64,000 nucleotides of DNA from Quercus robur (taxonomy: Eukaryota > Streptophyta > Magnoliopsida > Fagales > Fagaceae). Location: contig NC_065537.1 of assembly GCF_932294415.1 (NCBI RefSeq), positions 62,572,290 to 62,636,289 of the forward strand, written 5' to 3'. Made by a program: the position numbers and the translations under genes. Position 1 is the stretch's first letter, and each line of letters opens with the position of its first letter. Positions 14,179-41,875 of this stretch are shown piece after piece. The notes under the pieces are model-generated. The model was not told the DNA's origin and ran no database searches. It saw only the letters and a program-made list of their open reading frames with translations.

Positions 14179-16538
14179 TTAAACTGAACTCTGAGTTAAT
14201 AAGATTACATCTCTTTTCACTTGACATTGAATAATGGGTGGAGTGTCCTCCACCCATACTACACAGTTAGAAACAAGTTTGGCATTTCGAGCCATTAAGT
14301 GAGCAACAAAATTCCCAGTTCTCCGTATGTGGATGGTTGTCCATACCTGGACCTTCTGCTTCCAGTGTGTTGCTCCTGCTATAATTGTTCGGATTGATGT
14401 TGGTGGAAGACATTTTCCCAGCAGTGCATTGGTCACCACTTGAGCATCACCTTCCAAAATCACTTTATTGAGCCCAAGGTCCCCTGCAAGCAGTAATCCC
14501 TCCTCAAAAGCTATAGCTTCCACTTCCACAGCCCCTAAAGGTAATTCCAGCTTTTTACTCATAGCTCCCATAATCTGGCCTTGCGCGTTTCTGATTACAA
14601 CACTAACACCGCAGCTACCCAACTCCATAAACACCGTCCCATCCACATTTACTTTGTACCACCCTTCACACGGAGGCGTCCATCTCTCAGTTCTCGAAGA
14701 CGGTGTACTAATCAAGACTGCATTCAACGATTTGAACTCCTCCACCATAATTTCAGCTTCCTTAGCAATTGTCTTCCCTGCCTTGCCACAACCTTCAAAC
14801 TTTACAGCATTCTTATTTTTCCAAATACACCAAGCTATGGTGGCAAAAAACTCCCAGCTGATCTCCCTTCTGTCCTCCCATATCTTCCACACAACTTCCA
14901 TGAAATCCCGCAACGGGCTTTGAAGCTTTGGCAAAGCAAGCTTTGACTCCCTCCACACAGCCTCAGCCACCTCACAATCCCAAAGCGCATGCCCCGAAGA
15001 CTCTACTTTCCCACACTCCACACACATCCTCCACAGGAATTCTTTTGGGCTTAAGACCGTAATTTGTAGGGAGGATATTCTTGCACGCTCTCCACATAAA
15101 ATGCTTTACCTTGCTTGGGTAGTGCAGACTCCAAATAAAGTTCCAGAACTCATTCCACTTCTTTGGATTTGATGCCTCGCCCCCATCAGTCGTACCTCTT
15201 TGTTCCTTCAGCCAACTACATGCCACTTTATACCCACTGCTCATAGTAAATCTCCCATTTTGGGTCCATGTCCAGGTTATAGCATCCTCTGGAAAAGTGT
15301 GGTTAATTGGAATGCTTAAAATAGTCTCAGCTTCGTAAGGAAGGAAAACGCTGCATACCAAGTTTTTGTCCCAACCACCTCCCTCCCGATCTAGAAGAGA
15401 ATCCACCATATTACTCTCAAAAGCATGAGGCCGAGGACTAGTAACTTTGAAGGATTTTTGGGTTGGCAACCATCTATCACCCCATATTCTCACACTTTGC
15501 CCATTCCCTATGCTCCAACGCAGCCCCCTTTCAAGGACATGTTTAGCTTCCATCAAGCTCCTCCATGTGTATGAAGGCTTCTTGCCTACTTGTGCCTCCA
15601 TGAAATTGCTTTTCGGAAAATACTTCGCTTTCAAGACTCTGTGTGTAAGAGAACCCGGATTTTGCATGAGCCTCCACCCTTGTTTTGCAAGTAAAGCTAA
15701 GTTAAAGGCCCTGAGATCTTTAAATCCCATCCCCCCATCAACTTTTGGTTTGCACATTTTCTCCCAAGCAATCCATGCTAGTTTCTTTTCCTTGTCACGC
15801 TGTCCCCAACAAAAATTACAAATCAGAGAGTTTAGCTTGCTGCACAAGGAGTCAGGGATTTTAAAGCAATTCATTGTGTATGTCGGAGTGGCTTGGACAA
15901 CTACCTTTATTAGAATTTCCCGGCCTGTCGGTGACAGCAATTTTCCTTTCCAACTTGCTATTTTGCGCCCAACTTGGTCTTTAATGCGATTGAGGCTGTG
16001 TTTGGTTCGTGTAAAAGCATTTCCGGAAAATATTCCATTTTCCGAAAATGCAATTTTCCGGAAAGGAAAATGTTTTCATTTCAAAAAATTTTCCGAAAAA
16101 TATTTTCTGGTGTTTGGAAAAGAAGAAGGAAAAGACAAACCCAGAAAAACACGAACAAAACCCATAAAAAAAAAAAAAAAAAAAAATCATCAACGATCAA
16201 CGCTCGACTGGCTAGTTCGATGAGGGGCGAGATCGCGATCGACGCTCGACTGGGTTCGACGGTGCAGTGCTTCGCGAGCTCCAGTTCGACGACCGCGTTG
16301 TCGATCGCGATCGACGCTTCGTGAGATCGCGATCGATGTGAAGGCGAGATCGCGATCGACGGCGCGATCTCGCGAAGCGTTGATCACGATCTCTGATCAC
16401 GATCGACGGCGTGGTCGTCGGACTGGAGCTCGCGAGATCAACTGGTGCGTGCGATCGGCGCAGACTGGAGCTCGAGGTTCGCCGGCGATCATCAGACTGG
16501 ATTGGAGCTCGGGGGCCTTTTCTTCCTCTAGCGCGCTT

Positions 16539-16579
<41 letters not shown>

Positions 16580-19051: not shown

Positions 19052-19056
19052 TGAGC

Positions 19057-20535
19057 TCAGCTGTGCTGCCTCACAGCAACCGCCACTCCGCCATCCTTGA
19101 TTTTTTCCTTTCCTGTACTTTCCTTGCCTTGCGCCTCTCCCTTCTTATGTTTTGTATATCTGAACTGCTGGTCAAGCTCTTCCAGTTGTGTAGGTCCTTC
19201 TCTTTTCCTCTGAATAGGGCCGGCCTCCTCTTTACTTTCTTTACACAGCCCAGCCCGAGCCCTCCTCTTCCAGTGACTGCTATTTGGGCCTAAATTTTCC
19301 ACAACCCAGCCCACATCCACTTCGTACATCATCGCCACTGGGTTGTCCTTATTTTCGTCTAAGGCCAAGCCCACTCGACAGTCCTGTGTTGGGGCTTGTA
19401 GCGTTGACTTCAATTCAAATTTTTGGATTTCACTATGTTGTGTCCCTGTCGCCTTTTGCATGCTTCCTCCGTTCCTGCCTAAGTCAATCCCACTTTCCCA
19501 GTTTTTCTTTCCCAACTGAGCTAAAGTTTCACTTGGATTTTCACCAAGGTTTTTGTCCTTACCATCTTCATGAATAGCTTCTGCAGTCAGTTCTCCCTCG
19601 TTATAATTTTTCGTCAACTTCCCCAATGTGTCCTCCTCGAGGATTGATGCTTCCGTTATTTGCTCATCACGCTCCACCACCCTCCTTGGCTCTACCAGAT
19701 CATTCTGCCCCCCTTCCAAACCAACCTTTGTTCTATTTCTTGTGTCGCCACCCTCCTTCTAATTTGCGAAGCTATACTCACCTCCCGACCGTCTTGCTGG
19801 TTCCCCTCTCAGCCAAGCCCCATATTGGAAATCACCCCTCTCTTCTACCTTATCACTTCCTGCGCTCTCCAGGCACTCCTTCAGGTCATGTTCTAATAGA
19901 CCACATCTATAACAAAAGTTTGGAAGGCGCTCATATTTGAAATGCACCCACCTTGCTTCTTCCCCCTCCAAATTAATTTTCCGGCCTCTGATTAATTTCC
20001 GTGTAACATCTACTTCAACCCGAACTCGAAGATATCTCCCCCACTGAACTCTGGTATCCACCACATCTACATCCATAACCTTTCCCAAACTAGCTTCAAT
20101 TGCTTTCCCCATTTCTCTAGTTCGACTCTTGAGGGGAAGATTGTATATTTGCACCCAGAACGGTGACCATTTTAGCACAACGTCTTTCGGGTCCTGCTCT
20201 CCTTCAAAATCCTGCAAAAGCACCAGTTGTTTTTCGTAGTGCCACGGTCTCATATCCATCACTCTTTTCTTGTCTCTTTCATCCTCATACTCTGCCAAAA
20301 ATAACTCCTCTTCAATCACCGAAAGCTGAAGACTTTTGTTCGGTTTCCATTGCATCCTTATATTCTTTCTCAGAGCATCTAGCATAATACCTCTTCTTGA
20401 TAGTACCCTCAAGACAAGGCAGTTTTTTCCCCTCTCATTTGCTGCTCTCGTACATTCACCTCCAAGTGAAATACTTACCTCCTCTTCTTCGGTAACTTTA
20501 AGTTTCTGCCATAAAGTTTCGAGCTCCTCCGCCAT
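19057..20535 (-). pseudogene. LINE ORF1 (nucleic-acid-binding protein)
   Basis: The start is taken at MAEELETLWQKLKVTEEEE (20535) rather than the longer frame from 20574, because plant L1 ORF1 proteins begin this way. A DUF4283-like domain covers roughly the first 150 residues (with MRPWHYEKQLVLLQDFEG and FWVQIYNLPL). It is followed by a zinc-knuckle segment CYRCGLLEHDLKEC near residue 220. The C-terminal half is a low-complexity, Glu/Lys/Gly-rich tail. One TAG at 19759-19761 interrupts an otherwise continuous frame of about 490 codons. ORF1 protein coats the LINE RNA. Confidence 0.85.
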
Positions 20536-20696
20536 TCCTATCCCGTTAACAAAAACCGACCTTGACCTCACCACCAGAGTAGAAGGTCACTTTACTCCCA
20601 CAAGAACCTGTGGGACTAACTCTGCTTCTACGTGCCAAAAGGCTCGAGAGCACCTGATTCCCAACTAGTGGTAAATGAAATACGAGTTCATGATCT

Positions 20697-21553
20697 AAAC
20701 CAAGGAAAACAACAGTTATAAAGTGAAACAAAAGGAATCTAGTGTTTTCTAAACAGCCATATTTTCAAATGTTAAGTTCTGCGTGAAACTTGACATTAAC
20801 AATGTCGAGTTTTACGCGTATTTTGCAACTTAAATTTTTTAAAAAATTTGTACAAAATTTGATAGTAAACAATGTTGAGTTCTATTTAAAAGTATACATA
20901 TGCTGAGTTCTAAAAAATGGACATTTTGCTATAATAATTTGAAAAAAAGTTGTTTGACTACATAGTTTTAAAATTAAGGCTATTTAGTCATTTTTCCCAT
21001 CTAAAGACAGAAAGTCTTGGACACGATTTTTGTCAGTACCATAATATATGTGATTATAAGTAATAAAAAAAAAAGTAATGAGTTTATGTGTATGTGATAA
21101 TTCATCAATCACAATTACAAATACCATCAAATTGTGGCAAAAATTGTGACAAATGATACGGTACTCATAAAACTTGTATAACATACTATTGTGAATGTGA
21201 TGCATGAAAATTATATTTTTGTGCTCACTAGTGCTAATTAATCGCGTACGGAAAGAGTCGTTAACAAACACAATCCAAACAAATTTGAGATTATGTTGCA
21301 CGGAAAGTAGATAATCATTTTGGGATCTAATCTTTCTAATCAGTGCAATTCTCATCATATTTAGGGATCTTTGCTAATAAGTGGAGATTATTATATGCAA
21401 ATATCGGTATATACTCGATTGATTTTTTATTTTTTGCTTCCAAAATGACACTCAAGAATTAAGGACCATCTGTTGGAGAAATTGATCTTCTCCCTTAGAT
21501 CATTAGGGATCTAATTAGTAAGGGAATCCGGTAAAACATACACGCCTCCTTTA
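20697..21553. repeat. Duplicated spacer (partner 27268-28190)
   Basis: Non-coding sequence closely matching 27268-28190. Shared words include GTTATAAAGT, ACAATGTTGAGTT/AAATGTTGAGTT, GATTATGTTG and TTTAGGGATCTT. The duplicated block resumes at 24039 after the Harbinger-type element. Confidence 0.8.
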
Positions 21554-22446
21554 GAGCATCAGCATTGGTGGTGCCAAAAATTTTAACTTTTGATACCACA
21601 AAAAGCTATTTTATCTATTTTTATCACCTCACTTTACAAAACACTCATCATTTGATTCAGTATTATACTTCAAACGTGCCTTATAAAATTGACATTTAAC
21701 TAGTGAGGGTAATGTCACAGAGCTTTTGGAAAACTTTATCTTGTGGAAAAATTGTCACCTATGGAATGCAATTGTTGACTTGAAGATGGCATCTAGTTTG
21801 TAATGCCCCTTTAGAGTGTAGACTCAACATGCCTATCCACAAACTTTCTTACTACTGGGCCCAAATGTTCTTTTATTTCTTCCTTTTTTATCCTAAAATG
21901 TTGTTGGAAAGATAGTGTAGACTATGTTCCAATGATTTTAAACTTGTGTAAATTTGACCAAAATATATATCTAGTCTTTAAAGATTTTGTGATATCCTGC
22001 TCATCTTACATTTAATCGTGGCCCGTGAGTAGGCATTGGAAAGGTAATCTTAACCTCATCTCAAAGGTAGTCAATTTAATCCAATTAGATGCTAGGATGT
22101 TTGATTAGCTTAGAGCCAGTCCCAATTAATTAGTGTTTAACTCAATCAAAATAGGTCCAAGTTGGGATTATGCTTTCTAATCACATTTTTATTAATTTGT
22201 GAATAGATTTGACTAAGGGAAACGATCAAAAATTAGCTTAGGAGCTTTTGCTTTAAGGCATTCATTTTAAACTTTTTCTTTTATTTTCTTTAGTTTAATT
22301 ATGTTTTGTTTGTTTCTTTACTTGTTTTATGCCTTGATATATTTATGTAGTTCGGCTTGTGTTTTTGTATGTCTCAAAAGCATGTTAGGTTGTTAGAGTT
22401 AAGCTTTCAAGCGTTTTTTTTGTGTTTCTATTTCTGGGTTAGGGTT

Positions 22447-22683
22447 TAGGGTGTGTCTACATACCTAAGAAAGATGGGAAGGTAAGAATCTGTGTGAATT
22501 TTAGGGATTTGAACAAAGCTTGCCCAAAGGATGATTTCCCTCTTCCTCATGTAGATGTTTTAGTGGATAACACAGCTTGTAGTGCCTTGATGATTTTCAT
22601 GGATGGTTTCTAGGGATATAACCAAATCAAGATGGCTCATAGGGATATGACCAAAACTACCTTCACCATAGAATGGGGAATTT
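22447..22683 (+). mobile_element. Ty3/gypsy reverse-transcriptase fragment (fossil)
   Basis: Reading on the plus strand gives the conserved start of a gypsy reverse transcriptase: KDGKVRICVNFRDLNKACPK, then DDFPLPHVDVLVDN and GYNQIKMA. Only this short piece is present and it is broken. It sits in the nested insert of the Harbinger-type element. Confidence 0.8.
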
Positions 22684-22935
22684 TACCACCTCACTTTACA
22701 AAACACCCAACATTAGTGGTTTTATTTCAACATTCAACACATTAAAATAATATAAATAACACAATAAAATAATATAAAGAACACAATAAAATAATATATC
22801 TACTATAATAAACAACGACCACAACCACCACCACCCAAAATGAATCCCTAACCCAAAACTAAACAAAACTCAAATCCAAAGAGAGAAGAGAGGGCGAGAT
22901 GGGTCGAAGATGGGTCGGCAATAGAGGCAAAGATG

Positions 22936-23527
22936 CAGGGGTGGCTTGATGCATTTGGGGGCCTAAGGCGAAAATTGATCATCTTATTTAAATGCAAAAT
23001 TACTACTAATTAACATGAACTAAATAGAATTTTTTTTTTTTGAATTTTTAAGACAAAAAAAATTTGACAAAATTTTTCATATTTGTTGATGTGGTAGATT
23101 GATAGTGGTAAGTAAAACAGTGGTGTTAGTGGTAGATTTAGATGAAAACTAGTAAAAGTTTGTTAATTAAACTCTTATTATTATTCTTTTTTTTTTAGAA
23201 GTGCAACATTCACAATATTTTTTACAACAAATCCTAGATTTTAAACTGTTTTTTGTTTTTTATTTGAAAATATCACTATAATTATTTTTTTGCCATCAAC
23301 AATAGGCTGTAATAACTTGCTACTTAGCATTAGTTGTACAAGTGTTGTGAAAAATATTGTGGACGACGTTGCATTTTTCTCTATTTTTTTATTTTTTTTT
23401 CATCTAATAAAAAAATTTATTTTATTTATTGATTATAAATAATCCTATTGGTTAAAATTTAGGGGCCTTTTTTTTACTTGGGGCCTTAGGCGGTTGCATT
23501 TTTTGCTCCACCATAGAGCCGGCCCTG
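22936..23527. mobile_element. hAT-type MITE nested in the Harbinger-type element
   Basis: The termini are CAGGGGTGGC and GCCGGCCCTG, with a perfect 8-bp target duplication CAAAGATG at 22928-22935 and 23528-23535. Subterminal GGGGCCTNAGGCG words face each other. 592 bp, no coding content. Confidence 0.92.
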
Positions 23528-23851
23528 CAAAGATGGGTCGGCGAGGGGCTTGGGGCTTTGGCTGATGGCAAGTGGAGGAAGAAAGATAGGTCAGCATCTG
23601 AGCAGGGGAATTGGGCCTGCGAGGAGTGGAGGAAGAAAGAAAAAAAAAATAAAAGGGAGAAGAGAAGGGCGGTGGCTTGGGTCGGTGGCAAGTGGAGGAA
23701 GAGGTGGGTCGAAGTTGGGTAGGTTGGCAGCTGGGCAGGTGAGATGGGTCAATGAGGTGGAGGAAGACAAAAAAAAATATCTAAGGAGAGAAGGTGAGAA
23801 AAGTGAAGACTGATGAAAAGGGAGAGGAGGAGCTATAGTGGAGAAGCTAAT

Positions 23852-23882
<31 letters not shown>

Positions 23883-24038
23883 GTTTAACATCTGAGCTAC
23901 AGTGCATGCACTGCCAAAGATGGTTGTACACTCTAGTTCAACAACCAAAAATTTTATCTTTTCCAACATTGATGCAGCTCATTTTTGTTATATTTGGTTG
24001 TTAACTTTAGCAATTTGGCACCATCAATACTAATACTC

Positions 24039-25252
24039 TTAGTCCCATGTTAATGTGGTATATTGTGAAATAATTTACTCCCCTTGACTTATTTGTAGAG
24101 AATAATTGTACCAATGAGGCGTGAATGAGTTTGGCTTGTATTTTGTGTTGAGATTTACCTCCCCCAAATTAATATTCTATATGTAGTATTTTTATAATAT
24201 AAAAAATTTGTAGTGTCTCATAAAATATTGATAGATTATAAAAATTTTATAAAAGCTCCACTTTATTGTTTTTTTGTGAAAATAATTTTGTGATAATTCT
24301 TTAGTGATTCTTATACAATTAAATTTAAGGCATGTGGCTAAGGAAAATATATTTTCAAATTCAAAATTAAATACCAATTTGGTTTGAGTAAAAAATGTTG
24401 TCTAAGGAGTTTAGGCTTTGTTAACTCAAGCTCAATAGTGCACTTTTCAAACTATATCTTCAATATGCTTAGTTTTTATAATTTTCTTGAATACTCTTTT
24501 TTGTTCAATTTATTGTTATTTTTAAATATATTTTATTGAACTTTAGGATAATGTGCAAAGTCGCATGAGATATCAATTGAAAATAAAATTGAGTTTTTTG
24601 AGAGTCTAATTAAATTGGAATGATAGTTTTCTATTGTTATTTGTATGTCAAATAATTGTTATATATTCTTAGCAATTAGTGTATTACATAAGTTTTTTAT
24701 TATTGATTATGAATGGTAAATGAAATTACTTCTTTCTAAATAAAATTTCAAAATGCTTAAGAGGTTAAAAGTTTCATTAAAGCAAAAGTAATCTCAAAGC
24801 ACATCAATAAAGTTAAGAATATGTTACAAATACTATATAAACTCTCAATTTAAATTCAATTCTTTATATAACACTTAAAGATCTTTCAATTACTCAATAA
24901 TACTTAATCAATTTTATAAGAAAAATAGTACATAAGCCAAGCTTATGATGTTAGAAAATACATAAAGAAATTAAATTAGGAATTTCTCTATAATTTTAAC
25001 TTAATTACCTCTCACAAAATAAATATATATAAAAAAATCACTTACATTTTTAATCGAAATAACAAACGTATGCATACCTCTGCATGTTTATTTGTGTTTG
25101 AGTTTTAGACAATTTTATTTTGGTCCTAAAATTTGTCCAAAAATAAGATGTGGAGAGGAGAGAAAATTTAATTGATTCTACTTTACACTGCAAGACGAAA
25201 GCTTGCCACATCAGTAGGTGACATAAGCGTTATGACGAAAAGGATCAACATT
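24039..25252. repeat. Duplicated spacer (partner 39568-41456), keeps an empty site
   Basis: Non-coding block matching 28195-28243 joined to 39568-41456. The words CCCTTGACTTA (ending 24091) and TTTGTAGAGAATAATTG (from 24092) are adjacent here but are 11.3 kb apart in the partner. TAGCAATTAGTGTATTAC near 24670 is the unoccupied form of the Tourist-like insertion at 40326-40852. Confidence 0.85.
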
Positions 25253-26665
25253 TTCTTTTTCGGTGGGTTTGTACCTACGTGTTACAATTATTTGACGCTC
25301 ACATGTGATAAAGGAAAATTCATACTTTTTATATTGTAGATTAAAAAAATGTTTACAATAATATTATATATTTTTTGCAAATATGTATAATGTTGGACAT
25401 ATTTGTTTAATCTATATATATGTCAACTATCAACAAAAGCATAGATTCTTCTCTTAAAAAACAAACTAAAGCATAGATGTGCATCATAACGTGACGACAT
25501 AAAAAAGGAGTGTAAATTTTCCAATTGGAAAGCACTTCCTCTATTTTGGATAGTGAAATTCTTTTCAACATTCACATTCAAATGTCCAATTGGCATGCTC
25601 CAAATAAAAGATAGCATGTGATGGGCCATGCTAGTTAGAATGGATCTGTCTAGCACCAATAATTCAAAATAAGATTTGATATAGAATTCAAAATCAATTA
25701 GCACCGTCAAGTAAAAAATGTTTGGCCTATAGCATCAATAATTCAAAACAAAACTTTGTTAACTATCAAATTGAACCTACAAAAAATAAAAGGAAACGAT
25801 CACACTTTTCAAATAGAAATAGTAATGAATCAAGATGTGATATAGACCCGAATTCTACATATTTTTATTAAGAAAATCTATAGACACAATTTTTGTATCA
25901 TAACTTTTTTAATAATCTTATAATGTGTGATTATGATTAATAAGAAAAAAAAATGATGATTACATATAAAAGTGATAGTTCACCGATCACAATTGCACAT
26001 ATCATTAATTATGACAAATTCGATTGTCTTTTTGGGAACTAAATCTGAAACTCAATGTTGACCCAAAGGAGAGTATTAGCTATCAGTGTACCACTTCCGC
26101 CTATAAGATAAACCTAGCAAAAAATTTGAGAAGCAAGACACTGTGTTGATATAACATTCATCTGTGCCCCATTGGTATGACATAAAACATAAATTATATA
26201 ATCTAATAAAAATATAAATTCATATATTGACAATAACAACAACCAAAAAAACGCAAATGCATAAAGTTTTACAATTTTCTTCTACGAGTATGTTACTTCC
26301 TTATCAAATCTTTCTCCATAATATTAGCAAAAAAATAAACAATAAACTATAAGTTCATTTGAAATATTAATATAAAGTATTAATTATTGTCGTTTAGTTG
26401 TTTTACTATTTTTATTTACTAACCACTAGTAGTTTAGTACATGCCCCACTGCTTAGTTGTAAAGACTAAAAATACACTACCTCATCCACCAGGCTCAAAC
26501 CATTACCTAACATAGTTTAATTTTTTATTTTTTATAATGTCTTGTTCATTTACTTTTAATGCCCACTAGTCTATTCCACTACCCCAATCCAATGCGATAG
26601 TCCCATCCACCCCCACTCAAGAGACGAGCTAATCAACACAATTACATACACTTACACAAGAGTAG
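25253..26665. other. AT-rich spacer, no gene seen
   Basis: A 95-codon minus-strand frame at 25423-25710 has no recognisable content. No repeat borders are seen. Confidence 0.55.
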
Positions 26666-26855: not shown

Positions 26856-28243
26856 AAGCCTAAGAGTGTTTGTTTGGAGGTAAAATAAGGTGGATGGAAA
26901 ACTTTGGAAAGAAAATAGGAAGAAAATTTTTTTTGGTGTGTTTGGATGGGTGAGAAGAAAGGAAAATAAAAGGTGTGGTCCGGGTGTTTTCCCTCCAAGC
27001 CCACCAAAAATTCTCTCTCCAAAATAGAGAAAAAACTATGGAGAGAAGCTTACTAACAAGATTTGCTCAAAATACCATTCACATTCTTCTTTGCTAACTT
27101 TTTTTTTCTTTCTTTCTTTATTAATGTTCACGTTGTTTTAGGATTTTTTTTTCATCCCACTTGTTTGGTAAAAATTAGTGTGCATAATTCATAGGGGCCA
27201 CTAAATTTGACTCACAAAGCGTAAAGACAAACAAGTGGGCTATTAAATAATAGTCAGTGGACGAGTTCATGATCTTAACTAAGGAAAGCAAAAGTTATAA
27301 AGTACAACAAAAGAAATCTACTGTTTTCTAATAATTATGCACGCACTAATTGATCTAAAGAGGGAAGACTATTTAACCTTAATTTTTTAACTATACAGTT
27401 AAACAGCCACATTTTCAAACTATATACCAAAGTACTCCTGTTTTTTAATTCAATATTGCTGATTTTGAGTTTTGTTTGGATCTCGATATTAACAACGTCG
27501 AGTTCTACGCGTATTTTACTACTTAATTTTAAAAAAAAAAAATACACAGAATTTGACAATAGAAATGTTGAGTTTTACTTTAAAATACACATATGTCAAG
27601 TTCTAAAAGAGTAGTATTTTGCTAAAATAGTTTGAAAAAATAGTTATTTGGTTATATAGTTTAAAAATTAAGGTTATTTAGCCATTTTTTCCATCTAAAG
27701 GCATAAAGTACTTTATCACTACCATGATATATGTGATTATAAGTGATAAAGAAAAAATAATGAGTTTATCTGCACATGATAATTCATCAATTACAATTAT
27801 ACATATCATCAAATTATAGTAAAAATTGTGACAAATGGTGTGGTACACAAAAAACTTGTTTAAAGCATGCTCAATGGTGCATAGTATTGCGTACGTGATG
27901 CATGAAAATTATATTTTTTGTGCTCAATATTAATGGCGTACTGAAAGAGTCGTTGACAAACACAATCAAAAAAATTTTGAGATTATGTTGTACGGAAATT
28001 AGATAATCATTTTGGGTCTAATCTTTCTAATCAGTGCAATTCTCATCATATTTAGGGATCTTGCTTCCAAAATGACACTCGAGAAGGACCATTTGTTGGA
28101 GAAATTGGTCTTTTCACTTAGATCATTAGGAATCTGATTAGTAGGGGAATCGAGTTTGTTTGGGGGTCAAACATACATGCCTCCTTTAATTTAGTCCCAT
28201 GTGAAAGTGGTATATTGTGAAATAATTTATGTCCCTTGACTTA
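26856..28243. repeat. Spacer; from about 27165 duplicate of 13930-14116 plus 20697-21553
   Basis: No gene. 27165-27267 matches the left flank of the LINE and 27268-28190 matches its right flank, so this copy preserves the LINE's unoccupied target. 26870-27060 has short GTTTGG/TCTCTCTCC words of a possible MITE without clear borders. Confidence 0.75.
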
Positions 28244-28419
28244 TATATATATATAACCGAAATCCCTAAAACTTCCACAATTTTCCACATTAGCACAATA
28301 TTTAAATAAAATTATTTTTGTTTAGTCCAAACTTAACAAGGAGTGAAATAAAATTATTTTTGTTTAATCCAAACTTAACAACGAGTAAAATTTTATCTCT
28401 CTAACAAATCCAACTTAAA

Positions 28420-28453
28420 TAGGGACGGAACTACTCAAGGATTGAGGGGGGCC

Positions 28454-28486
<33 letters not shown>

Positions 28487-29007
28487 TTTACAAACTGACC
28501 CAAGAAATCCAACAAATAGATAACAAGAAAAATCTATTAAAAAAATTAAAAAAAATATCCAAATAATAAGAAATTTTTTTGGACAAATCATAAATCTGGT
28601 CTAAGCAAAAATAATAACAATAAATCAATTACAAATTCTAGCAAAAAAAAATCACAAAAACCCAATAACCTTTACCTAATTTCTCCCTCTCAATTGAGAG
28701 CTCTATGCCCCTCTCAAATGACTCCACCCTCATAGCCATAGAAACAACTCCTATGCCACATATTGATCGCTTCATCTACACATTAGTTAGACCTTGAAAA
28801 TATTAGGACGTGTCAATTAACTTGCACAACTCCTGATTATAAAATCCTATTATTAAATTTTATTTAAAGAAAAAAATAATTAATAATTAATAAATTAATG
28901 CTAATAATAAAACTTTGTCAACCTCTAATATTGATATTCCAATTTTTTAAAATCTTTGAACAAAGAACTTCGGCCCCCCCTAAGTTTGAATCCTGGTTCT
29001 GTCCCTG
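28420..29007. mobile_element. hAT-type MITE with C-run, in the Helitron-like element
   Basis: The ends are TAGGGACGGAAC and GTTCTGTCCCTG. The 8-bp target duplication is AACTTAAA (28412-28419 and 29008-29015). A G/C run follows the left end and CGGCCCCCCC precedes the right end. Same family as 42009-42645. Confidence 0.9.
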
Positions 29008-29373
29008 AACTTAAACTCAAACTCATCGTTATCATTATTTAAACAAAATTATTTTTGTTTAATCCAAACTTAACAAGGAGTGAAACTCTATCTCTCTAAC
29101 AAGTCCAACTTAAACTTAAACTCAAACTCAAACTTAAACCGAAACTTTTGACTTTTTGTTGATCTCTCCAAAACTTGTCATATCATTATTATTTTTTTAA
29201 AACAAAATTATTTAAATTTTCTACACCTCATTATAATTTATTTTATTTTTTAATTTCTTCAATTAGATTGAAAAAAGAATAACAACTTAATACAAACATA
29301 AATTGTATCAATCCAAAGTAGAGTTCTAAAGATCACAAAATTTCATTAAAAAAAAAAAATACACCAACTAACC

Positions 29374-29407
<34 letters not shown>

Positions 29408-29797
29408 TCTCCACTTAAAAGGAGTCCAAGTAAAAATCAAATACCTTAAAGTTCTTGAACTCTACGTTAATACCGTGTATATATTAAATGTTTTTTATTT
29501 TTTATTTTTTGAAGGGGCGATATATACAAACGGAGAATGTATGTAATCAGGTTTTTTACTAAAGATGTAATTAAAAACTGGATGCTACTTCGCAAACCAC
29601 TTTATTGAAACCCTAAGATTGAAAGGGTATGTTAGAAATACTGAATGAGTTGTATTGTATTTCACCAAATAAAAGAATATACATGAGTGCCTTTATCTAA
29701 AAGGCATATGAGTGTAGTACAATAATGTGTGCTATACAGGTAATCTAGTTGGGCCTAAAGCCCATAACACTATACACGTTAACAGCCCCCCTCAAAC

Positions 29798-32700
29798 TCA
29801 AGGTGAATGTGAGACCAACTTGAGGTTGTCAACCAAAGTATGAAGGCGTCCCTTAGGATGTGATTTAGTAAAGATATCTGCAAGTTGATCTTTAGAGTAG
29901 ACTGAGATCAGCTTGAGAGCACCATGGACAAGATGATAACGGATAAAATGACAATCGATCTCGATGTGTTTAGTTCGTTCATGGAAGACAACATTGTGAG
30001 CAATATGAATGGCACTCTGATTATCACAATAAAGAGGAGTATTAGAGGATGTAGACACACCTAAGTCTTTGAGAAGCCATCGTAGCCAAAGAAGCTCAGA
30101 TGTGGTATCAGTAAGGGCACGATATTCTACTTCAGTACTAGAGCAGGCCACATGAATATTTTTCTTGCTTCGCCAAGAAATCAAAGAAGAACCAAGAAGA
30201 AAGCAATAACCAATGGTGGACCTGCGATTAGTGGGATCTCCTGCCCAATCAGCATCAGAGAATGCACGGAGAATAAGAGGAGACTGAGCAGAGTAGAAAA
30301 TACCATGGAATAGAGTGCCCTTTAGGTATCGAAGAATGTGCAAAACAGCAGCATAGTGAGTCGATCGTGGAGCAGACAGGTACTGGCTCACCTGGTGAAC
30401 AGCATAGGAAATGTCTGGACAAGTGACAGTAAGATAAACGAGGCTACCAACCAAGCATCTGTAAAGAGAGGGATTAGACAATGGTTTACCCCCAGAGGGA
30501 GTCAGATGCGCATTAAGCTCAACTGGAGTGTCAACAGTCTTACTATCAGTGAGTCCAACTCGAGACAAGAGTTCAAAAGCATACTTGGCTTGAGTAATAT
30601 AAAGTTCATCTGTAGAATGAGTGATTTCAAGACCCAAGAAGTAGTTGAGATGTCCAAGATCTTTCATCTCAAACTGCTAACTGAGAAAATCCTTGAGTTC
30701 TTGAATGCCACTGAGGTCATCACCAGTTATGATCATATCATCCACATACAGGAGAAGTAAAATAGTGCATTTGTCAGTGCAACGAAGAAATAAGGCAAAA
30801 TCATAATGACTGGCCATGTAACTCAAGCGAGAGATGCTAGAACTAAATTTGGCAAACCAAGCTCGTGGAGCTTGTTTAAGGCCATAAAGTGCACGTCAAA
30901 GGTAACAAACCTTGTTTGAGTCAACAGAGAGACTAAGAGGAGGTTGCATATAAACTTCCTCACTTAAATCCCCATTAAGGAATGCATTTTTGACATTCAT
31001 TTGAAAAAGATCTCATTTACTGGCAGCAGCAACAGCTAAGAGGGCACGGACAGAAGAGATACGAGCAACTGGAGTAAAGATCTCTTCATAATCAATCTCA
31101 TACTCCTGTGTAAAACCTTTTGCAACAAGACGAGCTTTATAGTGCTCAATGGACCCATCAGAGCGAGTCTTAATCTTGTAGATCCACTTACAACCAACCA
31201 CAGATTTCCCGGGGGGGAGTGTCACCAAATCCCAAGTATGATTTTTAGATAATTCATCAAGTTCCTCTTTCATTGCAATCTGCCATAAAGGGTCAGTGGA
31301 AGCCTCACAATAGGTGTGAGGCTCATGTAGTGTAGCAAGGGCAGTGTAATAATGATAGTCAAGTAAATGTGTAGGAATAGATCTTACCCAAGTTGAGTGA
31401 CGAGGTAGAATGTCTTGTGCAAGATCTTCAGGCGAAGTAGGAGCAGGGGACCCAAGTTTAGGGTTGGGGTTGGGTAGCTCGTCTTCAACCTGTTCATCTT
31501 CCACCTGTTCATTAAAGGGTGAACTAGGAATGGATCAGTGATATCTGGTGGTTAGACAGAGAAGTCTACAGGAGAATCATGAGCAACTACAGGAGGATCA
31601 GGAGCAGCTACAGAAGGAATATGTGCCTCATCTAGAAAAAGATCTAAAACAGAGGAGGAAGATAAGAAGCACGGAAGTGAGAGAGCTCGACAAAGAGGCG
31701 ATGTTCCCAAAAGACAACATTGCGGGAAATACGAAGACAATGAGAGACAGGATCATAACACCGATACCCCTTTTGAGTTTCGCCATAGCCAAGAAAACAA
31801 CAAAACCTTGACCTAAGCTCAAGTTTGTTATGCTCATGTGGCTGAAGAAGAACGAAACAAGCAAAACCAAAGGAGCGAAGGTGGTGATAGTTTGAAGGTG
31901 ACCCAAAAAGGCGCTCATATGGAGTTTGATTTTGGATAACAGGACTCGGAATGCGATTAATAGCATGAACAGCCCAAAAAGGAGTAGGAACTTTAGCAGA
32001 GAGAAGGAGAACACGAACAGTGTCAAGAATATGATGAAGTTTCCATTCGGCTTTACCATTTTGCTGAGAGGTACCTGGACAAGTTAGTTGATGAATAGTA
32101 TCATAGGAATGCAAAACAACTTGGAAAGCATATTGAGTATGTTCAAGAGCATTATCAGATCGAAAAATCTTGATGCATTTGGAAAACTGAGTTTCAACCA
32201 TTTTTGCAAAATTAGAATATACTTGCAATAATTCAGAACGATATTTCATATTAAAAATCCAGCTATAACGAGAGTAATCATCAATAAAGACAACAAAATA
32301 TCGATACCCACCAATACTAAAGACAGAAGAAGGCCCCCAAACATCAAAATGAATAAGGTCAAAGATATCAGTGGATATTGATTCACTAGTATTGAAAGGC
32401 AAAGCTAGTTGTTTTCCTAATTGGCACGAAACACAATCAAAATTTTCTGTAGACACTGAACCTAACAAACCTTTAGAAGCCAATTATTGTACTCGAGAGG
32501 AAGATGCATGACCAAGGCGAGCATGCCAAAGTGCAAGGGAAGGAATTGAAGAAACTGTAACAGCTGTAGCAACAGAAACAGGAGCAACAAGTGGAAGATG
32601 AAGGTTGTCCACGGGAAACGTACGCCTAACTCTAGGACCGGTCCCAAGCTCTTGTCTCATCCTCAGATCATGTACAATACACTCAAAATAATCAAATATA

Positions 32701-33269
32701 ATACGATAACCCAACTCAGCTAATTGTCCCATAGAAAATAAATTGTAAGAAAGGTTAGGAACATTAAAGAACCCAAGAACCAAAAAGTTGGAGGTCGAAA
32801 CAGAACCTATATTATGACCAGACATTGTGGAACCATTTGCTGTGCAAATATTAAGAGGGTGTGGTGCATGTTTGAGTTCAGAAAATAAGGATGAGTGAGG
32901 TGTCATGTGATTGCAACAAGCAGAATCCATAAGCCAAGAGGAATGAGACATACCAGATAAAGCTAAGAGAGAAGAGGAATAAGATGCATTACCAACCATA
33001 CGAATGACATTGGCAATGTTGTTTTTAAGGTCATCTGTGGACATGGTGAAAGTGCGTTCTGAAGACTTAAACTGTGCAGAGACAGGAGCCATTGGTTGGA
33101 CACTCTCAGTGTTAGCAACAGTAGCAGCAGAAATTGAAACAACTGATGTGTTGCAATGATAGCAAGTCTCAATATTGTGGCCAAAATGTTTGCAAAAATT
33201 GCAAAAACATTTGCTAGATTGTCGGCGATGATTATTGCAACAAGAAGAAGACCTGTCCTTATTCTTCAT
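29798..33269 (-). pseudogene. copia gag-pol remains (fossil)
   Basis: Parts recognised, in order on the minus strand: CCHC knuckle (CNFCKHFGHNIETC) and protease-like WLMDSACCNHMT (32484-33269); GAG-pre-integrase HARLGHAS and integrase FDVWGPSSVFSIGGYRYFVV (31644-32500); reverse transcriptase GCKWIYKIKTRSDGSIEHYK (31013-31504); and the end of the reverse transcriptase with RNase H, MKDLGHLNYFLGLEI through YCDNQSAIHIAHN (29798-30667). This is the normal copia order. The element is broken and not expected to encode a working polyprotein. Confidence 0.9.
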
Positions 33270-34032
33270 TTAGAAGCAAAATATGCAAAAATGGACTACA
33301 AAAATGAAATCTACGCGAAAAACTGGGTAAGGAGCACCTGGACTGTAAAAAGTCAACTCTTTGAAAAAGTCAACGGTCAAACATAATCAAAGTCAACCGT
33401 CAAAGAAAAGTCAACGAATGACGTCAGCAGGCAGACTGGTGATGACGTAATCAAGTGACGTCAACTAGGGTTGACATGGCAGTTATGACGTCAACTATGA
33501 CATCAACAGGATACCGGCGGCATGTGTGGCACGTGGACGAAATTCGCTAAAGCTTATGGCAGCGCGTGAGGGCGCGTGGGCCGTCAGATGAAGCTGATTC
33601 TTTCCCGAAAATGCAGATTGGAGAAAGACGATTCTGATGGTGTCAGTGGCAACAAGATCAAAACTACCCTGGTGGCGCGTGAAGTGCGTGGAATAATTTG
33701 CTGAAACTTTAACCGGCACGTGGCGGCGCATTGATGTTCCGAGGTCGATTTTTCTGGCGGCTATGTGTAGAGCGATTGAAAATCTACACGGTGATATATC
33801 TTATGTCCTAATCGGTGGTCAGAGGTGACAGATCCAATGATGGCAGTGGTTTTGGTGGCGGAGGAGGAGCTTCTGGTGGTGGAGATTCAACCCTGAGGAC
33901 CTCTAATGGCGGCGAAGCTGTCGGGAGAGGGTAGTGAAAGGGTTTACTGACCACAGAAGTTGAGGCAGCGGAAAATACTAACAAAACAAGACGGCAAGAC
34001 ACAAGAAAATTATAGCAATGGCTCTGATACCA

Positions 34033-34355
34033 TGATAAATATTAGTATTGATACACCATGTTGAATATGCTTGTATAGATGCAGAAGTGAAAGTATAAAG
34101 TATAGAATATAGTAACACACGAGAGTTACGTGGTTTAGCCTAACGGCCTACATCCACTGATGAAACCTTAAAGGGCTACATCAATAATATATTAGAGTGT
34201 AGTACAAATCTTGTGTTACAATGAATTATAACATGTATATATATGGTAAACTAAACCTTAGACTAATAGACTTCTAGTATAAGTAGGAGACTTGGCTTGC
34301 ACACAAAGTAGAATTAGGCTTGGGCTTATGCTAATGGGCTAATATATTTTTAACA
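34033..34355 (-). repeat. LTR of a second copia family, internal to the 29630-34818 element
   Basis: 323 bp, TG...CA in minus orientation. A primer-binding site (TGGTATCAGAGCC, minus) lies on its low-coordinate side (34020-34032) and a polypurine tract on its high side (34356-34370). It is clearly related to the LTR at 59518-59862 (shared words include CCTAATTCTACTTTGTGTGC and AGAAGTCTATTAGTCTA), and not to the terminal LTRs of the element that contains it. Confidence 0.85.
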
Positions 34356-35485
34356 CCCCCTTTCAAACTCAAGATGGAAACTTGATGAAATCTTGAGATT
34401 TGATAAGGTTGAGAAGATCTCTTGAATGAAGTTTGACTCTATAACGGTAGTTTGAGGAAGGCAATGGTCTTGCAGTGTTGATGCGACTTCTAATGGTGGC
34501 TTGACTATACCTGAGAGTTTTGACGGCAGCAGTAGGAAGCCAAAGAAGATGAACGCAGCGAAAAAACACCGAGGAAGACAAAGATTGCTCTTAAATGTAC
34601 CGTAAGGACAGAAAACCATGGCCGCAGGAAGGTGACTCTGATACCATGATAGAAATACTGAATGAGTTGTATTGTATTTCACCAAATAAAAGAATATACA
34701 CGAGTGTCTTTATATAGGAGGCATATGAGTGTAGTACAAGTAAGAGTGTAGTACAATAATGTGTGTTATACAAGTAATCTAGTTGAGCCTAAAGCCCATA
34801 ACACTATACACGTTAACAGGGTAAAAACAAACGAAATCAAAACCAACACTCAAACTTATCGTTATCATTTTTTAAACAAAATTATTTTTGTTTAATCCAA
34901 ACTTAACAAGGAGTGAAACTCTATCTCTCTAACAAGTCCAACTTAAACTCAAACTCAAACTTAAACAGAAACTTTTGATTTTTTGTTGACCTCTCCGGAA
35001 CTTGCCACATCATTATTATTTTTTTAAAATAAAATTATTTAAATTTTTTACACCTCATTATAATTTATTTTATTTTTTAATTTCTTCAATTAGATTGAAA
35101 AAAAAAATAACAACTTAAAAATACAAACAAAAATTGTATCAATCCAAAGTAGAGGTCTAAAGATCACAAAATTTCATTAAAAAAGAAAAAAAAAATACAC
35201 TACTAACCGTGTATATATATACATTCTACACTTAAAAGGAGTCCAAGTAAAAATCAAATACCTTAAAGTTCTTGAACTCTATGTTAATACCATGTATATA
35301 TCAAACGTTTTTTATTTTTTATTTTTTGAAGGGGGAATATATACAAATGGAGATTAATGTATGTAATCAGGTTTTTTTTACTAAAGATGTAATTAAAAAT
35401 TGGATGCTACTTCGCAAACCACTTTATTGAAACCCTAAGATTGAAAGGGGTAAAACAAACGAAATCAAAACCAACACTCAAACTC

Positions 35486-35695
35486 AAGAAAACCATGGCC
35501 GCAGGAAGGTGACTCTGATTCCATGATAGAAATATTGAATGAGTTGTATTGTATTTCACCAAATAAAAGAATATACACGAGTGTCTTTATATATGAGGCA
35601 TATGAGTGTAGTACAAGTAAGAGTGTAGTACAATAATGTGTGCTATACAAGTAATCTAGTTGGGCCTAGAGCCCATAACACTATACATGTTAACA
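35486..35695 (-). repeat. Second copy of the copia 5' LTR, primer site and leader end, within the array
   Basis: 35524-35695 is a 172-bp LTR nearly identical to 34647-34818, including the 17-bp segment absent from the other terminal LTR. It is followed by the same GGGTAAAAACAAACGAAATC array flank. The adjoining 38 bp repeat the primer-binding region of the big element. It was copied together with its flank and is not an independent insertion. Confidence 0.88.
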
Positions 35696-37308
35696 GGGTA
35701 AAAACAAACGAAATCAAAACCAACACTCAAACTTATCGTTATCATTTTTCAAATAAAATTATTTTTGTTTAATCCAAACTTAATAAGGAGTGAAACTCTA
35801 TCTCTCTAACAAATCCAACTCAAACTTAAACTTAAACCGAAACCTTTGACTTTTTGTTAACCTCTCCAGAACTAGCCACATCATTATTATTTTTTTAAAA
35901 CAAAATTATTTAAATTTTTTACACCTCATTTTAATTTATTTTATTTTTTAATTTCTTCAATTAGATTGAAAAAAAAAAATAACAACTTAAAAATACAAAC
36001 ATAAATTGTATCAATCCAAAGTAGAGTTCTAAAGATCAAAAATTTTCATTAAAAAAAAAAAAAAGACACCAACTAACCGTGTATATATATATACATTCTC
36101 CACTTAAAAGGAGTCCAAGTGAAAATCAAACACCTTAAAGTTCTTTAACTCTACATTAATACTGTGTATATATCAAATGTTTTTTTATTTTTTATTTTTT
36201 GAAGGGGGGATATATACAAACAGAGAATGTATGTAATCAAGTTTTTACTAAAGATGTAATTAAAAACTGGATGCTACTTCACAAACCACTTTATTGAAAC
36301 TCTAAGATTGAAAGGGTAAAAAAAACGAAATCAAAACCAACACTCAAACTCATCGTTATCATTTTTTAAACAAAATTATTTTTATTTAATCCAAACTTAA
36401 CAAGGAGTGAAACTCTATCTCTCTAACAAGTCCAACTTAAACTCAAACTTAAACTTAAACTGAAGCCTTTGACTTTTTGTTGACCTCTCCAGAACTTGCC
36501 ATATCATTATTTTTTTTAAAATTATTTAAATTTTTTACACCTCATTATAATTTATTTTATTTTTTAACTTCTTCAATTAGATTGAAAAAAAAAATAACAA
36601 CTTAAAAATACAAACAAAATTTGTATCAATCCAAAGTAGAGTTCTAAAGATCACAAAATTTCATTAAAAAAAAAAATACACCAACTAACTGCATATATAT
36701 ATACATTCTCCACTTAAAAGAAGTCCAAGTAAAAATCAAATACCTTAAAGTTCTTGAAATCTACGTTAATACCATGTATATATCAAACGTTTTTTTATTT
36801 TTTATTTTTTGAAGGGGGGATATATACAAACGGAGAATGTATGTAATCAAGTTTTTTACTAAAGATGTAATTAAAAATTGGATGCTACTTCGCAAACCAC
36901 TTTATTGAAATCCTAAGATTGAAAGGGTAAAAACAAACGAAATCAAAACTAACACTCAAACTCATCATTATCATTTTTTTTTAAAAAAATATTTTTGTTT
37001 AATCCAAACTTAACAAAGAGTGAAACTCGATCTCTCTAACAAGTCCAACTTAAACTCAAACTCAAACTTAAACCAAAGCATTTGAGTTTTTGTTGACCTC
37101 TCCAGAACTTGCCACATCATTATTTTTTTTTTAAAAATTATTTGAATTTTTTACACCTTATTATAATTTATTTTATTTTTTAATTTCCTCAATTAGATTG
37201 AGAAAAAAAAAATTACAACTTAAAAATACAAACAAAAATTGTATCAATCCAAAGTAGAGTTCTAAAGATCACAAAATTTCATTTTAAAAAAAAATACACC
37301 AACTAACC

Positions 37309-37350
<42 letters not shown>

Positions 37351-37639
37351 TCTCCACTTGAAAGGAGTCCAAGTAAAAATCAAATACCTTAAAGTTCTTG
37401 AACTCTACTTTAATACCATGTATATATCAAACGTTTTTTATTTTTTATTTTTTGAAGGCGGGATATATACAAATGGAGAATATATGTTATCAGGTTTTTT
37501 ACTAAAGATGTGATTAAAAATTGGATGCTACTTCAAAAACCACTTTATTGAAACCCTAAGATTGAAAGGGTAAAAATAAACGAAATCAATACCAACATCA
37601 AAATCTGAATCATATTATTATACAGATTGAAAAAGTTTT

Positions 37640-39567
37640 TTTTTTTTTTTTAATTATGTATATATAATAATTGAACTCTTCAAATACTAAAAGATCATGA
37701 TATATTAGAACTTTGGGAGACTAATCGCTTGGTGGACAAATTATTAGCACCAGCATAGATGGCTCCCAATGGTGACTGCTTGATTGGTGAGGAAGAAAAA
37801 GAAGTCGCATTATATATATAATTTCGATCTCAAGTCTCAACAACAAGCTATTATCCTAGGGTAAACTTAGCGCTAGGTTCAACCCACCAGTAGATTGTTT
37901 CATCTAAATAATTCCATTGTGTTTTAACTACTGACTTTTTGGTTAATTTTTTGTAACATTTGAAATTTTCTTGCAAATTTTAACAATTATAGCAATGGAT
38001 TATTCTTTTGAAAGTAGAATATCTTTCTTTTATATTTCTCTGTGTAGTTACATATTTTATTTTATTTTTGTTTATATTTTGTTTCAATAATTTGTAGGTT
38101 TAGGTTCTAAAAGTTTAAAATAACTGGCAAATTGTGAACACAAACTTGTCTAGATATAGATCCTAGAGTCTATAGGTATTATTAGACAATGCTCAATGCG
38201 ATATAAGTCAAGATTCAAGAACATACAAGCCGCAGAAAGAGAATTCAAAATCTACCTGGTTCGACTGATCGAAAGACAGGCTCGACCGATCGAAATACGG
38301 GTCTATAGAATTTTAAGTTCAGCCCAACAGCAGTTCAAACCCAAAAAGGATTAGGATTTCAGATCTACTTCTTCTAGTATTTAAAGGAAACCATAAGCAC
38401 GTTTTTATAAGACTTTTCAGAGTGAGAAGAGTGTGCCTCTTTTGTATCTAGGGTTTTGTACCCAAAAAGCTCTCTCATATCTTCTACCGATGTTATTCCT
38501 TGAAGAATCTCAGGATCCGGTGTTGTAGAAGTTGCTACCTTCTCTAGTCATCAAAGGTGCTGATGATCTAAACTTTCAAGAGTGGTCTTGTTGTCACAAA
38601 CAAGAGAGTTTGTATTGATAAACCTTTGAGTGGAGTCTCAAAGTCACAAGTGTGGGTGATTGTGTTGCAAAGGCCAAGGAAAGAAGTAGTCCATGGACTC
38701 GAAGTTATTACGGGGTCGTGGTAGTAAGTTCTATGTGTAGTAGCAATAGGATGTTAGTGGTCTAAGTCTTATTGTAAACTTCTATTTTTTTCTAGTGGAT
38801 TTGGTTTTTACCTTTAGAATATCTAGGTTAAATCCTTCCCAAGTTTTTTACCGATTTGGTTTTCCTAGATCATCATATCATTATGTTATTTATTTTTCCG
38901 TTGCTTTGCATGATATGATTGGTTTTTTTTTTTTTTTTTATCATCTAGATCTAAATAATAAACCTAAGTATTCACTTGGTTAATTAATTAGGTTAAACAT
39001 TCTAGTTTAAAGGGATCTAAAAACCTAACAGTAGGCACCAAATTTTCAAATTCTTTAGTTTCTTCTGAATTTTTGGGTTTATTTTTTGCATTATATGAAA
39101 CTGTGTGGCATCTTTCAACGGCATCTTTCTCTTGTATTTCTCTTTTGTGTGTAATGACTGTAGTCATATAATTTTTCTATTGTTTCAATAATTCTAGGTT
39201 TAGAATCTTCTAATTTTTTTTAAATTATTTTTTTAGCATTTTCGAAGTTTTAACATCTGACCTTTTACATTAGTTTTAGCAATATCTGAACATGTTTGGT
39301 AGATTTCAACAACTATACCATGGGTAATTCTTTTGAAGATAACTAATATTTCTCTTATATTAATTTCTCTATTGTGTACGTAGCCATATATATTTTGTTT
39401 TGTTTCAACAATTCCTAGGCAATGAATCTTTCAATTCGTGAATATTTTAAGTTTTGACTTTTTCATCAAATTGTAACACAAATTCAAGTCAAATAGGAGC
39501 AATTTATGCAATTGTATAGTTTCATAATCAATTTAAGTTCTCATGCATTGCACAGGTTAGCGGCTAG
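37640..39567. repeat. 3' part of the Helitron-like element: diverged repeats and possible solo LTR
   Basis: Three imperfect copies of a segment of about 180 bp (37930-38110, 39060-39215, 39290-39450) share AACAATTATAGCAATGG-, GATTATTCTTTTGAAAG- and TTTCAATAATT-like words. 38133-39030 looks like a solo copia LTR: TG start, CCTAACA end, internal GTTGCAAAGGCCAAGGAAAG and TCTTATTGTAAACTTC. It interrupts the first copy. Its borders are approximate and no clean target duplication was found. Confidence 0.5.
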
Positions 39568-40325
39568 TTTATAGAGAATAATTGTACCAATGAAGCTTGA
39601 ATGAGTTTGGCTTGTACTTTGTGTTCTTGTGCACTAGAGATGGAAGTATATTGAGATTAACACCTCCCTCCCCAAAAAAAATCTATATTGTATTATTTAT
39701 AATTATTAAAATTTTTAAGAGATTTCAAACAAATAAATAAATAAGAGTTTGCCTCCCTAAAAATTTGAATCCCCCCCCCCCCCAAAAAAAGGAGAGAGGG
39801 ACGTCTTTTGAACTCAAAAAAAAAAAAAAAAAAAATCTCATAAAATTTTGATAGATTATACAAATTTTATAAAGGCTCAATTGTTTTTTGTGAAAATAAT
39901 ATTGTGATAATTCTTTAGTGGTTCTTATACAATTAAATTTAAGGCCTATGGCTAAGGAAAATTTATTTTCAAATTCAAAATTAAATACCGATTTGGTATG
40001 AGTAATAAATGTTGTCTAAGGAGTTTAGGCTTTGTTATCTCAAGTTCAATAATGCACTTTCAGACTATATGTTCAATATGCTTAGTTTTTATAATTTTCT
40101 TGAGTACTCTTTTTTGTTCAATTTATTGTTATTTTTTAAAATATATTTTATATTATTTTGTTGAACTTTAGGACAATGTGTAAAGTTACATGAGATATCA
40201 ATTGAAAAGAAAATTGAGTTTTTTGAGAGACTAAATTGGAATGATAGTTTTTAAAAATGATTTTTGATTAATGTATTGCTTTGTTATTTGTTGGTCAAAT
40301 AATTATTATATATTCTTAGCAATTA

Positions 40326-40852
40326 GGGTACGTTTGGTATACTAAATATGAATTACAACAGGAATGGTAATCTTTATTACCAGAAATAAAAGGTATTGTA
40401 ATGGAATAACTAAACATATTCATTAGTTTGGTTGTGCGTTGTAACATTAGAATAAAACTTATGATCTATTTTAGAAAATATCTCATTCATACAAATATAT
40501 TTCCTAGAAAATAAGATATTTTAAATTTTAGAGAGATGAGTTATTTTTTAATGATTTTTTATTTCCATAATTGTTAGGTGGATATGAAAAGTTCATTTAT
40601 TTGGAAATATATTAATGTTAGAATTTTTTTTTTTTTTTTTTTTGGATACAAGATAGAATTCTACTCCAGCCTAATCTAAGTGTATATGTGTGTGAAGCTC
40701 CCTCCTAGAAACTTGAACCTCGGTCCTTGCCCCCCACACTTCACAAGTAATGGCTATTCCCTGTAATAAAAATATAACCAAACTATTGAATAGCTAAACC
40801 ATAGGAATAACTATTACATTACAGTGCCTATTACAATCTACCAAACATGCCC
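40326..40852. mobile_element. Tourist-like (PIF/Harbinger) MITE
   Basis: The ends are GGGTACGTTTGGTA and TACCAAACATGCCC, with TTA target duplication (40323-40325 and 40853-40855). The duplicate at about 24670 shows the unoccupied AGCAATTAGTGTATTAC. A minus-strand SINE is nested inside. The subterminal words AATGGTAATCTTTATTAC and GGAATAACTATTACATTA face each other. Confidence 0.9.
40624..40734 (-). mobile_element. 5'-truncated SINE, nested in the Tourist-like MITE
   Basis: A T run (poly-A on the minus strand) is followed by GGATACAAGATAGAATTCTA and GTGAAGCTCCCTCC. This is the reverse complement of the 3' two thirds of the SINE at 45036-45204. The A-box end is missing. Confidence 0.75.
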
Positions 40853-41456
40853 TTAGTGTATTACACAAGTTTTTTATTATTAATTACGAGTGGTAAACGA
40901 AATTACTTCTTTCTAAATAAAATTTCAAATGTTTAAGTTAAAAGTTTCATTAAAGTGAAAGTTATCTCAAAACCCATCAATAAAGTTAAGAACATGTTAC
41001 AAATACTATATAAAGTCGCAATTTAAATTCAGTTCTTTATAGAACACTTAAAGATCTTTCAATTACTCAATAATACTTATTCAATTTTATAAGAAAAATA
41101 ATATATAACCCAAGCTTTTGATGTTAGAAAATACATAAAAGAAATAAAAAATTGAGAAGAAATACATAAAAGAAATTGAATTAAGAAATTCTCTGTAATT
41201 TTAACTTAATTACCTCTCACAAAATAAATATATATAAAAAAAATCACTAATATTTTTTAGTGAAATAATAAACATATGCAAATCTCTTCATGTTTATGTG
41301 TGTTTGAGTTTCATACAATTTCATTTTGGTCCTAAAATGTGCCCAACAATAAGATTTGAAAAGAAAAGAGCAAATTTAATTGATTTCATTGTATAATGCA
41401 AGAAGAAAGGATCAACATTAGTTAGTGACATAAGCATTATGACAAAAAGGATCAAC

Positions 41457-41875
41457 ATTTGTCCATTAAGGTTAATTTATTTAGGGTTGATGGAATATTT
41501 CTATTTAATTTATTACATTTACTACTTCAAGTGGGGAGATTGGGAATTAGTCTTTTGTTATCCAATGGAGTCAATTTTGCACAACAAGGAGGGATGGGTA
41601 TTCAACCAAAAAAAAAAAAAATATAGGAAGGAGGGCGAAAAGGGTTTTGTTGTATATGATTTTGTGGCCAAAGTAAGCAGAAAGTAAAAGTCAACAAAGC
41701 CAGTGCATGGATTTTCCGAAAATAATTTATGGTTTGGGGAGCCTATGCCAATCAGGACCAATGTGTTTATTCCTCCCTTTAAATTCAAAATCTACTAGTA
41801 TTTTATAGATAATATTTTTAACCACAGCACACCATTGGTATATTGTTCACTCTATAAATACAAAATTATTGTGAT
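41457..41875. repeat. Duplicated PGG-upstream block (partner 56826-57115)
   Basis: Shared words include GATTTTGTGGCCAAAG, CAGAAAGTAAAAGTCAA and GGGGAGCCTATGCCAATCA. An insert at about 41600-41633 (AAGGAGGG duplicated on both sides, A run inside) is absent from the partner. No PGG gene remains on the downstream side of this copy. Confidence 0.7.

Follow-up and report, generated by a model that had tools for sequence, protein, structure and literature searches.

The 11,324-bp block at positions 28244-39567 of the window (the whole stretch of 64,000 nucleotides that was analysed, C4:62572290-62636289 in a genome of 786 Mb and 42 contigs) is almost certainly a single insertion of a non-autonomous Helitron from a high-copy plant family, which has since decayed, been enlarged and been invaded. 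The block is a composite in which three other mobile elements, each with its own target duplication, have entered some 4.4 kb of Helitron-derived DNA. Its parts, preceded by a paralogous empty site, are:

24039-25253, + strand: paralogous empty site, junction 24091|24092 (self-BLAST).
28244-28419, + strand: Helitron 5' end TATATATATATAACCGAAATCCC..., now without its terminal TC, together with the first short repeats (left end recurs at at least 38 other places).
28420-29007, no strand assigned: hAT-like non-autonomous element, 588 bp, inverted ends TAGGGACGGAAC and GTTCTGTCCCTG (read from the sequence).
29008-29629, + strand: array unit W1 (self-BLAST, repeats, unit alignment).
29630-34818, - strand: LTR retrotransposon of Ty1/copia type whose coding part is split over several frames (Pfam, LTRs).
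34819-35486, + strand: array unit W2 (self-BLAST, repeats, unit alignment).
35487-35695, - strand: second copia-end copy, 36 bp internal sequence plus LTR (self-BLAST, 93%).
35696-36318, + strand: array unit W3 (self-BLAST, repeats, unit alignment).
36319-36930, + strand: array unit W4 (self-BLAST, repeats, unit alignment, genome search).
36931-37605, + strand: array unit W5 (self-BLAST, repeats, unit alignment).
37606-38098, + strand: Helitron 3' body (joined directly to the sequence from 39031 onward in L033, L034, L035, L037 and L038).
38099-39030, no strand assigned: solo-LTR-like insertion, 932 bp, TTTAGGTT...AACCTAACA (absent from five relatives; ends read).
39031-39567, + strand: 3' end of the Helitron: decayed hairpin CTCATGCATTGCACAGG, terminus TTAGCGGCTAG, then T (right-end search, fold).

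Self-BLAST of the window gives two paralogous segments, A (20682-25253) and B (27261-41460), and a third, C (L003, L051, L052), is located at C4:62.647 Mb, some 11 kb beyond the last base of the window. The block splits B at TGACTTA|TT, where A and C are unbroken: CCCTTGACTTATTTGTAGAGAA runs across 24081-24102 in A, while in B the left flank stops at 28243 and the right flank picks up at 39568. The preliminary description, made from the sequence alone, had pointed to this continuity and this split, and paralogue C (L003), which is also empty of the insert and reads TGACTTATTCATAGAG, now adds a second empty site. The alignment that it proposed joins 24039-25253 to both sides of the insert at 83-93% identity: 24039-24092 matches 28191-28244 (91%, E 9e-14), 24092-24149 matches 39568-39625 (93%), 24216-24683 matches 39836-40330 (84%) and 24676-25253 matches 40853-41460 (83%). 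By these alignments A is a true segmental paralogue and no chance match. Judged against the two empty sites, no target duplication was found at the outer borders, and the earlier claim of one insertion between A and T without target duplication holds as well. Paralogue A also contains a stretch of about 2.5 kb (21553-24039) that has no counterpart in B at 28188-28191 (self-BLAST).

Both ends of the block recur in the genome, and they recur together. The left-end query gave at least 41 matches at at least 40 places, which are the window, paralogue C (matched through its flank only) and at least 38 others; the right-end query was matched at at least 39 other places, mostly over part of the query only. 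We read 20 of the 38 other left-end loci, and a 25-base motif with at most 5 substitutions within 5 kb downstream was scored as the 3' end. Such an end is found on the same strand in 14 of the 20 loci and on the opposite strand in one, and 6 of the 20 have no right end within 5 kb. The paired ends are 0.7 to 4.3 kb apart, a span in which nested material may be counted, so that not every distance is a clean element length. The base after the 3' end is T in all 14 paired loci, and 11 of them end in CTRR (10 CTAG, 1 CTAA), the other three in GTAG, TTAG and TTGG; together with the empty sites, these 14 copies indicate a preference for T after the 3' end. The window copy itself ends with CTAG at 39564-39567, followed by T. 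At the 5' border, 12 of the 20 loci read A|TC and 3 read C|TC, while 5 (L017, L019, L020, L023, L026) lack the TC. Relatives start with A|TCTATATATA...AACCGAA, and the family end sequences are TCTATATATA...AACCGAA upstream and GCACGGGTTAGCGRCTAG downstream. The exact end GCACGGGTTAGCGRCTAGT occurs 1274 times in the genome versus 0 times for a control (the pattern read backwards), which means that the wider family is abundant; the window copy, being decayed, does not match this exact end. The paired ends, the A|T target and the terminal CTAG sustain the earlier assignment to a Helitron; against it count the 6 loci without a right end, the 3 paired ends outside CTRR, the 3 C|TC starts, the C|TC start and GGTTAA end of the relative L030 and, in the window copy, the missing TC and the unstable hairpin.

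The close relatives are short, with lengths calculated from match positions. L030 (C6:32.26 Mb) is about 1.1 kb long, contains one near-full unit of about 617 bp, starts with C|TC and ends with GGTTAA, and its right end is 91% identical to that of the window. L033 and L034, about 1.7 kb each, share the 3' body and contain a partial unit, then a match to 37584-38098 joined directly to a match of 39031-39569; L033 starts with A|TC and ends with CTAA|T. L010, a locus also numbered L004, is about 0.7 kb long and complete, A|TC...CTAG|T, with short repeats of about 95 bp, and such repeats stand in tandem in several relatives. In L023, the 5' start of one copy lies 2 bp past the CTAG of another, head to tail.

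Two other readings of the borders were weighed against a single insertion. If the element had once been common to the paralogues, the empty sites would be losses, not never-occupied sites. The relations among the paralogues are indeed not clean: A and C are closest to the right of the border (distances A-B 0.111, B-C 0.105, A-C 0.074), yet in the 54 bp to its left C is 98% like B and A 91% like B (left-flank distance A-B 0.139), so that no single simple history fits all three. However, A and C each run uninterrupted through this A|T, and a precise loss happening twice is improbable, which leaves this reading with hardly any credit. The block might also come from two Helitrons that lay head to tail and later fused, each supplying one end. 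Head-to-tail neighbours exist in the family, as in L023 and in L030, where another 5'-like start directly follows the copy, but the same ends are paired in the short copies (L010, L030 and L033/L034), and L030, L033 and L034 continue from the unit into the 3' part seen in the window. Fusion is therefore disfavoured and very unlikely. The search for copies with both ends, which the preliminary description had called for, found them in these relatives and in 14 of the 20 loci, in agreement with one insertion.

The 5' border of the window copy reads TGACTTA|TATATATA, without the terminal TC that the family has (A|TC in 12 of 20). This absence had been named as the main weakness of the Helitron assignment; the TC is indeed missing, as in 5 of 20 relatives, and L033 and L034 offer an explanation. 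They represent one insertion duplicated with its surroundings, the flanking sequence being common to both, and the border is CTATTA|TCAATATA in L033, with A|TC kept, and CTATTATATATATA in L034, with TC lost. TC loss after insertion, as in the window copy (TGACTTATATATATA), is thus seen directly in a relative. Judging by these sequences, we take the missing TC of the window copy to be a loss in its TA-rich start. The window copy is a decayed Helitron by family descent, not by its own 5' end.

At the other end, canonical plant Helitrons carry a hairpin about 10-12 bp upstream of the 3' terminus. Three copies were folded: the 3' end of the window copy folds no better than shuffles (z 0.97), so its hairpin is not stable, while L030 has a 7-bp stem (z -3.5) and L010 a 5-bp stem (z -2.6). 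The description of an insert ending in CTAG after a decayed hairpin is thus confirmed. Between the L030 hairpin CCCGTGCATTGCACGGG and that of the window there are three differences, all transitions, which would fit decay of methylated cytosines.

Inside the block, the hAT-like element is flanked by the 8-bp target duplication AACTTAAA at 28412-28419 and 29008-29015, the left copy being the last 8 bases of the Helitron 5' part; we presume, from its features, that it belongs to the hAT superfamily. The copia element has LTRs at 29630-29784 and 34647-34818 and the target duplication GGGTA at 29625-29629 (the last 5 bases of W1) and 34819-34823. The LTR pair, the 5-bp target duplication and an integrase ahead of the reverse transcriptase identify it as Ty1/copia. 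When five of its frames were submitted to Pfam one by one, three exceeded the cut-off (RVT_2; SH3_retrovirus with rve; Pol_BBD), a fourth reached 31.5 bits for RVT_2 against a cut-off of 31.6, and the fifth matched no family. The element is also a mosaic: an LTR-like stretch of another kind (34034-34345) and, next to it, a spacer of 300 bp (34346-34645) lie between the right-hand LTR and the coding part. In L006:163-1088, stretch, spacer and stretch in series form an element of about 0.93 kb resembling a TRIM, and a further copy of the LTR-like stretch lies at 59539-59837 on the minus strand. The second copia end belongs to a tandem duplication, 34610-35486 / 35487-36352, in which 56 of 864 sites differ (0.065). 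The solo-LTR-like insert is bounded by GTAGG at 38094-38098 (the last 5 bases of the 3' body) and 39031-39035, and similar pieces are found in L039.

The block minus these four stretches of later origin (588 + 5189 + 209 + 932) leaves 4406 Helitron-derived bases, target duplications counted in, of which the five units make up about 3.2 kb. The figure of 11.3 kb is therefore rejected as a transposed size: "very large", as the preliminary description put it, is right for the present composite and has to be qualified for the Helitron, whose own part is about 4.4 kb, whereas enlargement by an internal array and later insertions can now be itemised as five units and three inserts. By arithmetic, a one-unit version would be about 1.9 kb, near the complete relatives of about 0.7-1.7 kb.

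A genome search with W4, in which the best 39 of 1210 candidates were scored, gave first the five units of the window (89-100%), next L030 (89%, over positions 48-612 of 612), after it four places where partial units match at 81-89% (L033, L034, C40:45.06 Mb and C1:6.58 Mb), and finally shorter matches. Among these best 39, the segment is whole elsewhere only once, in L030, and no second locus has more than one full unit. W1-W5 differ from one another by 0.046-0.083 and from L030 by 0.087-0.118; their distances to L033/L034 (0.175-0.202) are inflated by the non-homologous last part of the L033/L034 rows. The split of L030 and L033/L034 from the window units receives 51% ultrafast bootstrap and 0.80 in FastTree. 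From this search, these distances and this weakly supported split, it is likely, short of proof, that the segment of about 617 bp was amplified in place into five units. That the array should have been made in an earlier copy, and been there already when the Helitron inserted, is possible but doubtful: the units of the array are just somewhat closer to one another than to L030, support for their grouping is weak and several relatives carry tandem short repeats of about 95 bp, but among the best 39 candidates a full unit was repeated at no other locus, and at least one duplication postdates the insertion, as a copia LTR sits within it and it must have happened after the copia element arrived. 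For amplification in place, the full account, a satellite-like array that arose in one Helitron copy out of its unique body and in which the trapped retrotransposon marks at least one later unequal duplication, has about an even chance of being right.

Beside the observed borders, two empty sites, co-occurring ends, composite anatomy, nested target duplications and post-copia duplication, a history may be proposed. The Helitron entered one copy of a segmental duplication at an A|T step, and related Helitrons presumably supplied, in trans, the Rep-helicase that moved it. Later the TC disappeared from its TA-rich 5' start, and the hairpin near its 3' end decayed; the body segment now stands in five tandem units, and unequal exchange at the locus is the most likely way in which it multiplied; the hAT-like, copia and solo-LTR-like elements inserted into the Helitron; and a later duplication copied one copia LTR along with a unit. 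The copia LTR pair differs at 9 of 156 sites (0.058) and the duplicated LTR at 6 of 173 (0.035), against 0.065 for the whole duplication. Segment duplication first, then the Helitron, then the array and copia, and at last the second duplication is an order that agrees with these values and with those of the flanks and units, though the last values overlap and are read here without a clock.

The movement of Helitrons is ascribed to a Rep-helicase. No frame for such an enzyme was seen in the insert, in the open-frame list or by Pfam on the copia coding stretch, so that it would depend on other elements. The genome has 126 Helitron_like_N matches, and among the matches listed seven lie in open frames over 1000 codons. 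When these 126 coordinates were compared by eye with the listed left ends, right ends and the first 100 of the 1274 exact 3' motifs, no Rep-helicase element was tied to the family ends. The closest candidates were a right end at C38:27928250 (minus) and a fragment at C38:27933734 (plus); they lie some 5.4 kb from each other, but in opposite orientation, and were rejected.

Outside the block, the window contains a cluster of PGG-domain (PF13962) frames at 1606-2271, 12276-12881 and 60798-61349 (minus strand), all three of which match Pfam, and two similar-looking frames at 9666-10013 and 56143-56814. A LINE-like element lies at 14179-20586 (minus strand; RVT_1 and Exo_endo_phos in two frames tested), and an open frame at 62390-64000 with a Retrotrans_gag match runs off the window.

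The locus offers a clean worked case, in which the paralogous empty sites, the relatives that confirm the ends and the target duplications of the nested elements lead to an ordered history, and if the array expanded in place, it would exemplify a Helitron body seeding a tandem repeat. No view of how Helitrons work is changed. The array, seen at the window locus only among the best 39 of 1210 candidates, is the one less ordinary feature of an ordinary Helitron. An A|T target without duplication, a CTRR end and a hairpin near one end belong to the description of Helitrons in PMC4683698, which also presents DHH_Mothra of rice, a non-autonomous Helitron with tandem-repeat blocs and sub-types of 1252-2741 bp. 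As there described, DHH_Mothra has in common with the family of the window copy a TC start and CTAG end (at family level here), a 3' hairpin (here a stem in L030 and L010, not in the window copy), no Rep-helicase, low G+C and internal tandem repeats; unlike it, the window copy has a body segment of about 617 bp that stands five times in a row, at this one observed locus, with nested elements in between. The Cg_HINE non-autonomous Helentrons of the Pacific oyster, as described in PMC7492417, resemble the window copy in having a central satellite-like array within an element of the rolling-circle group, but they belong to the Helentron superfamily and an animal host, and their arrays are dispersed with many elements.
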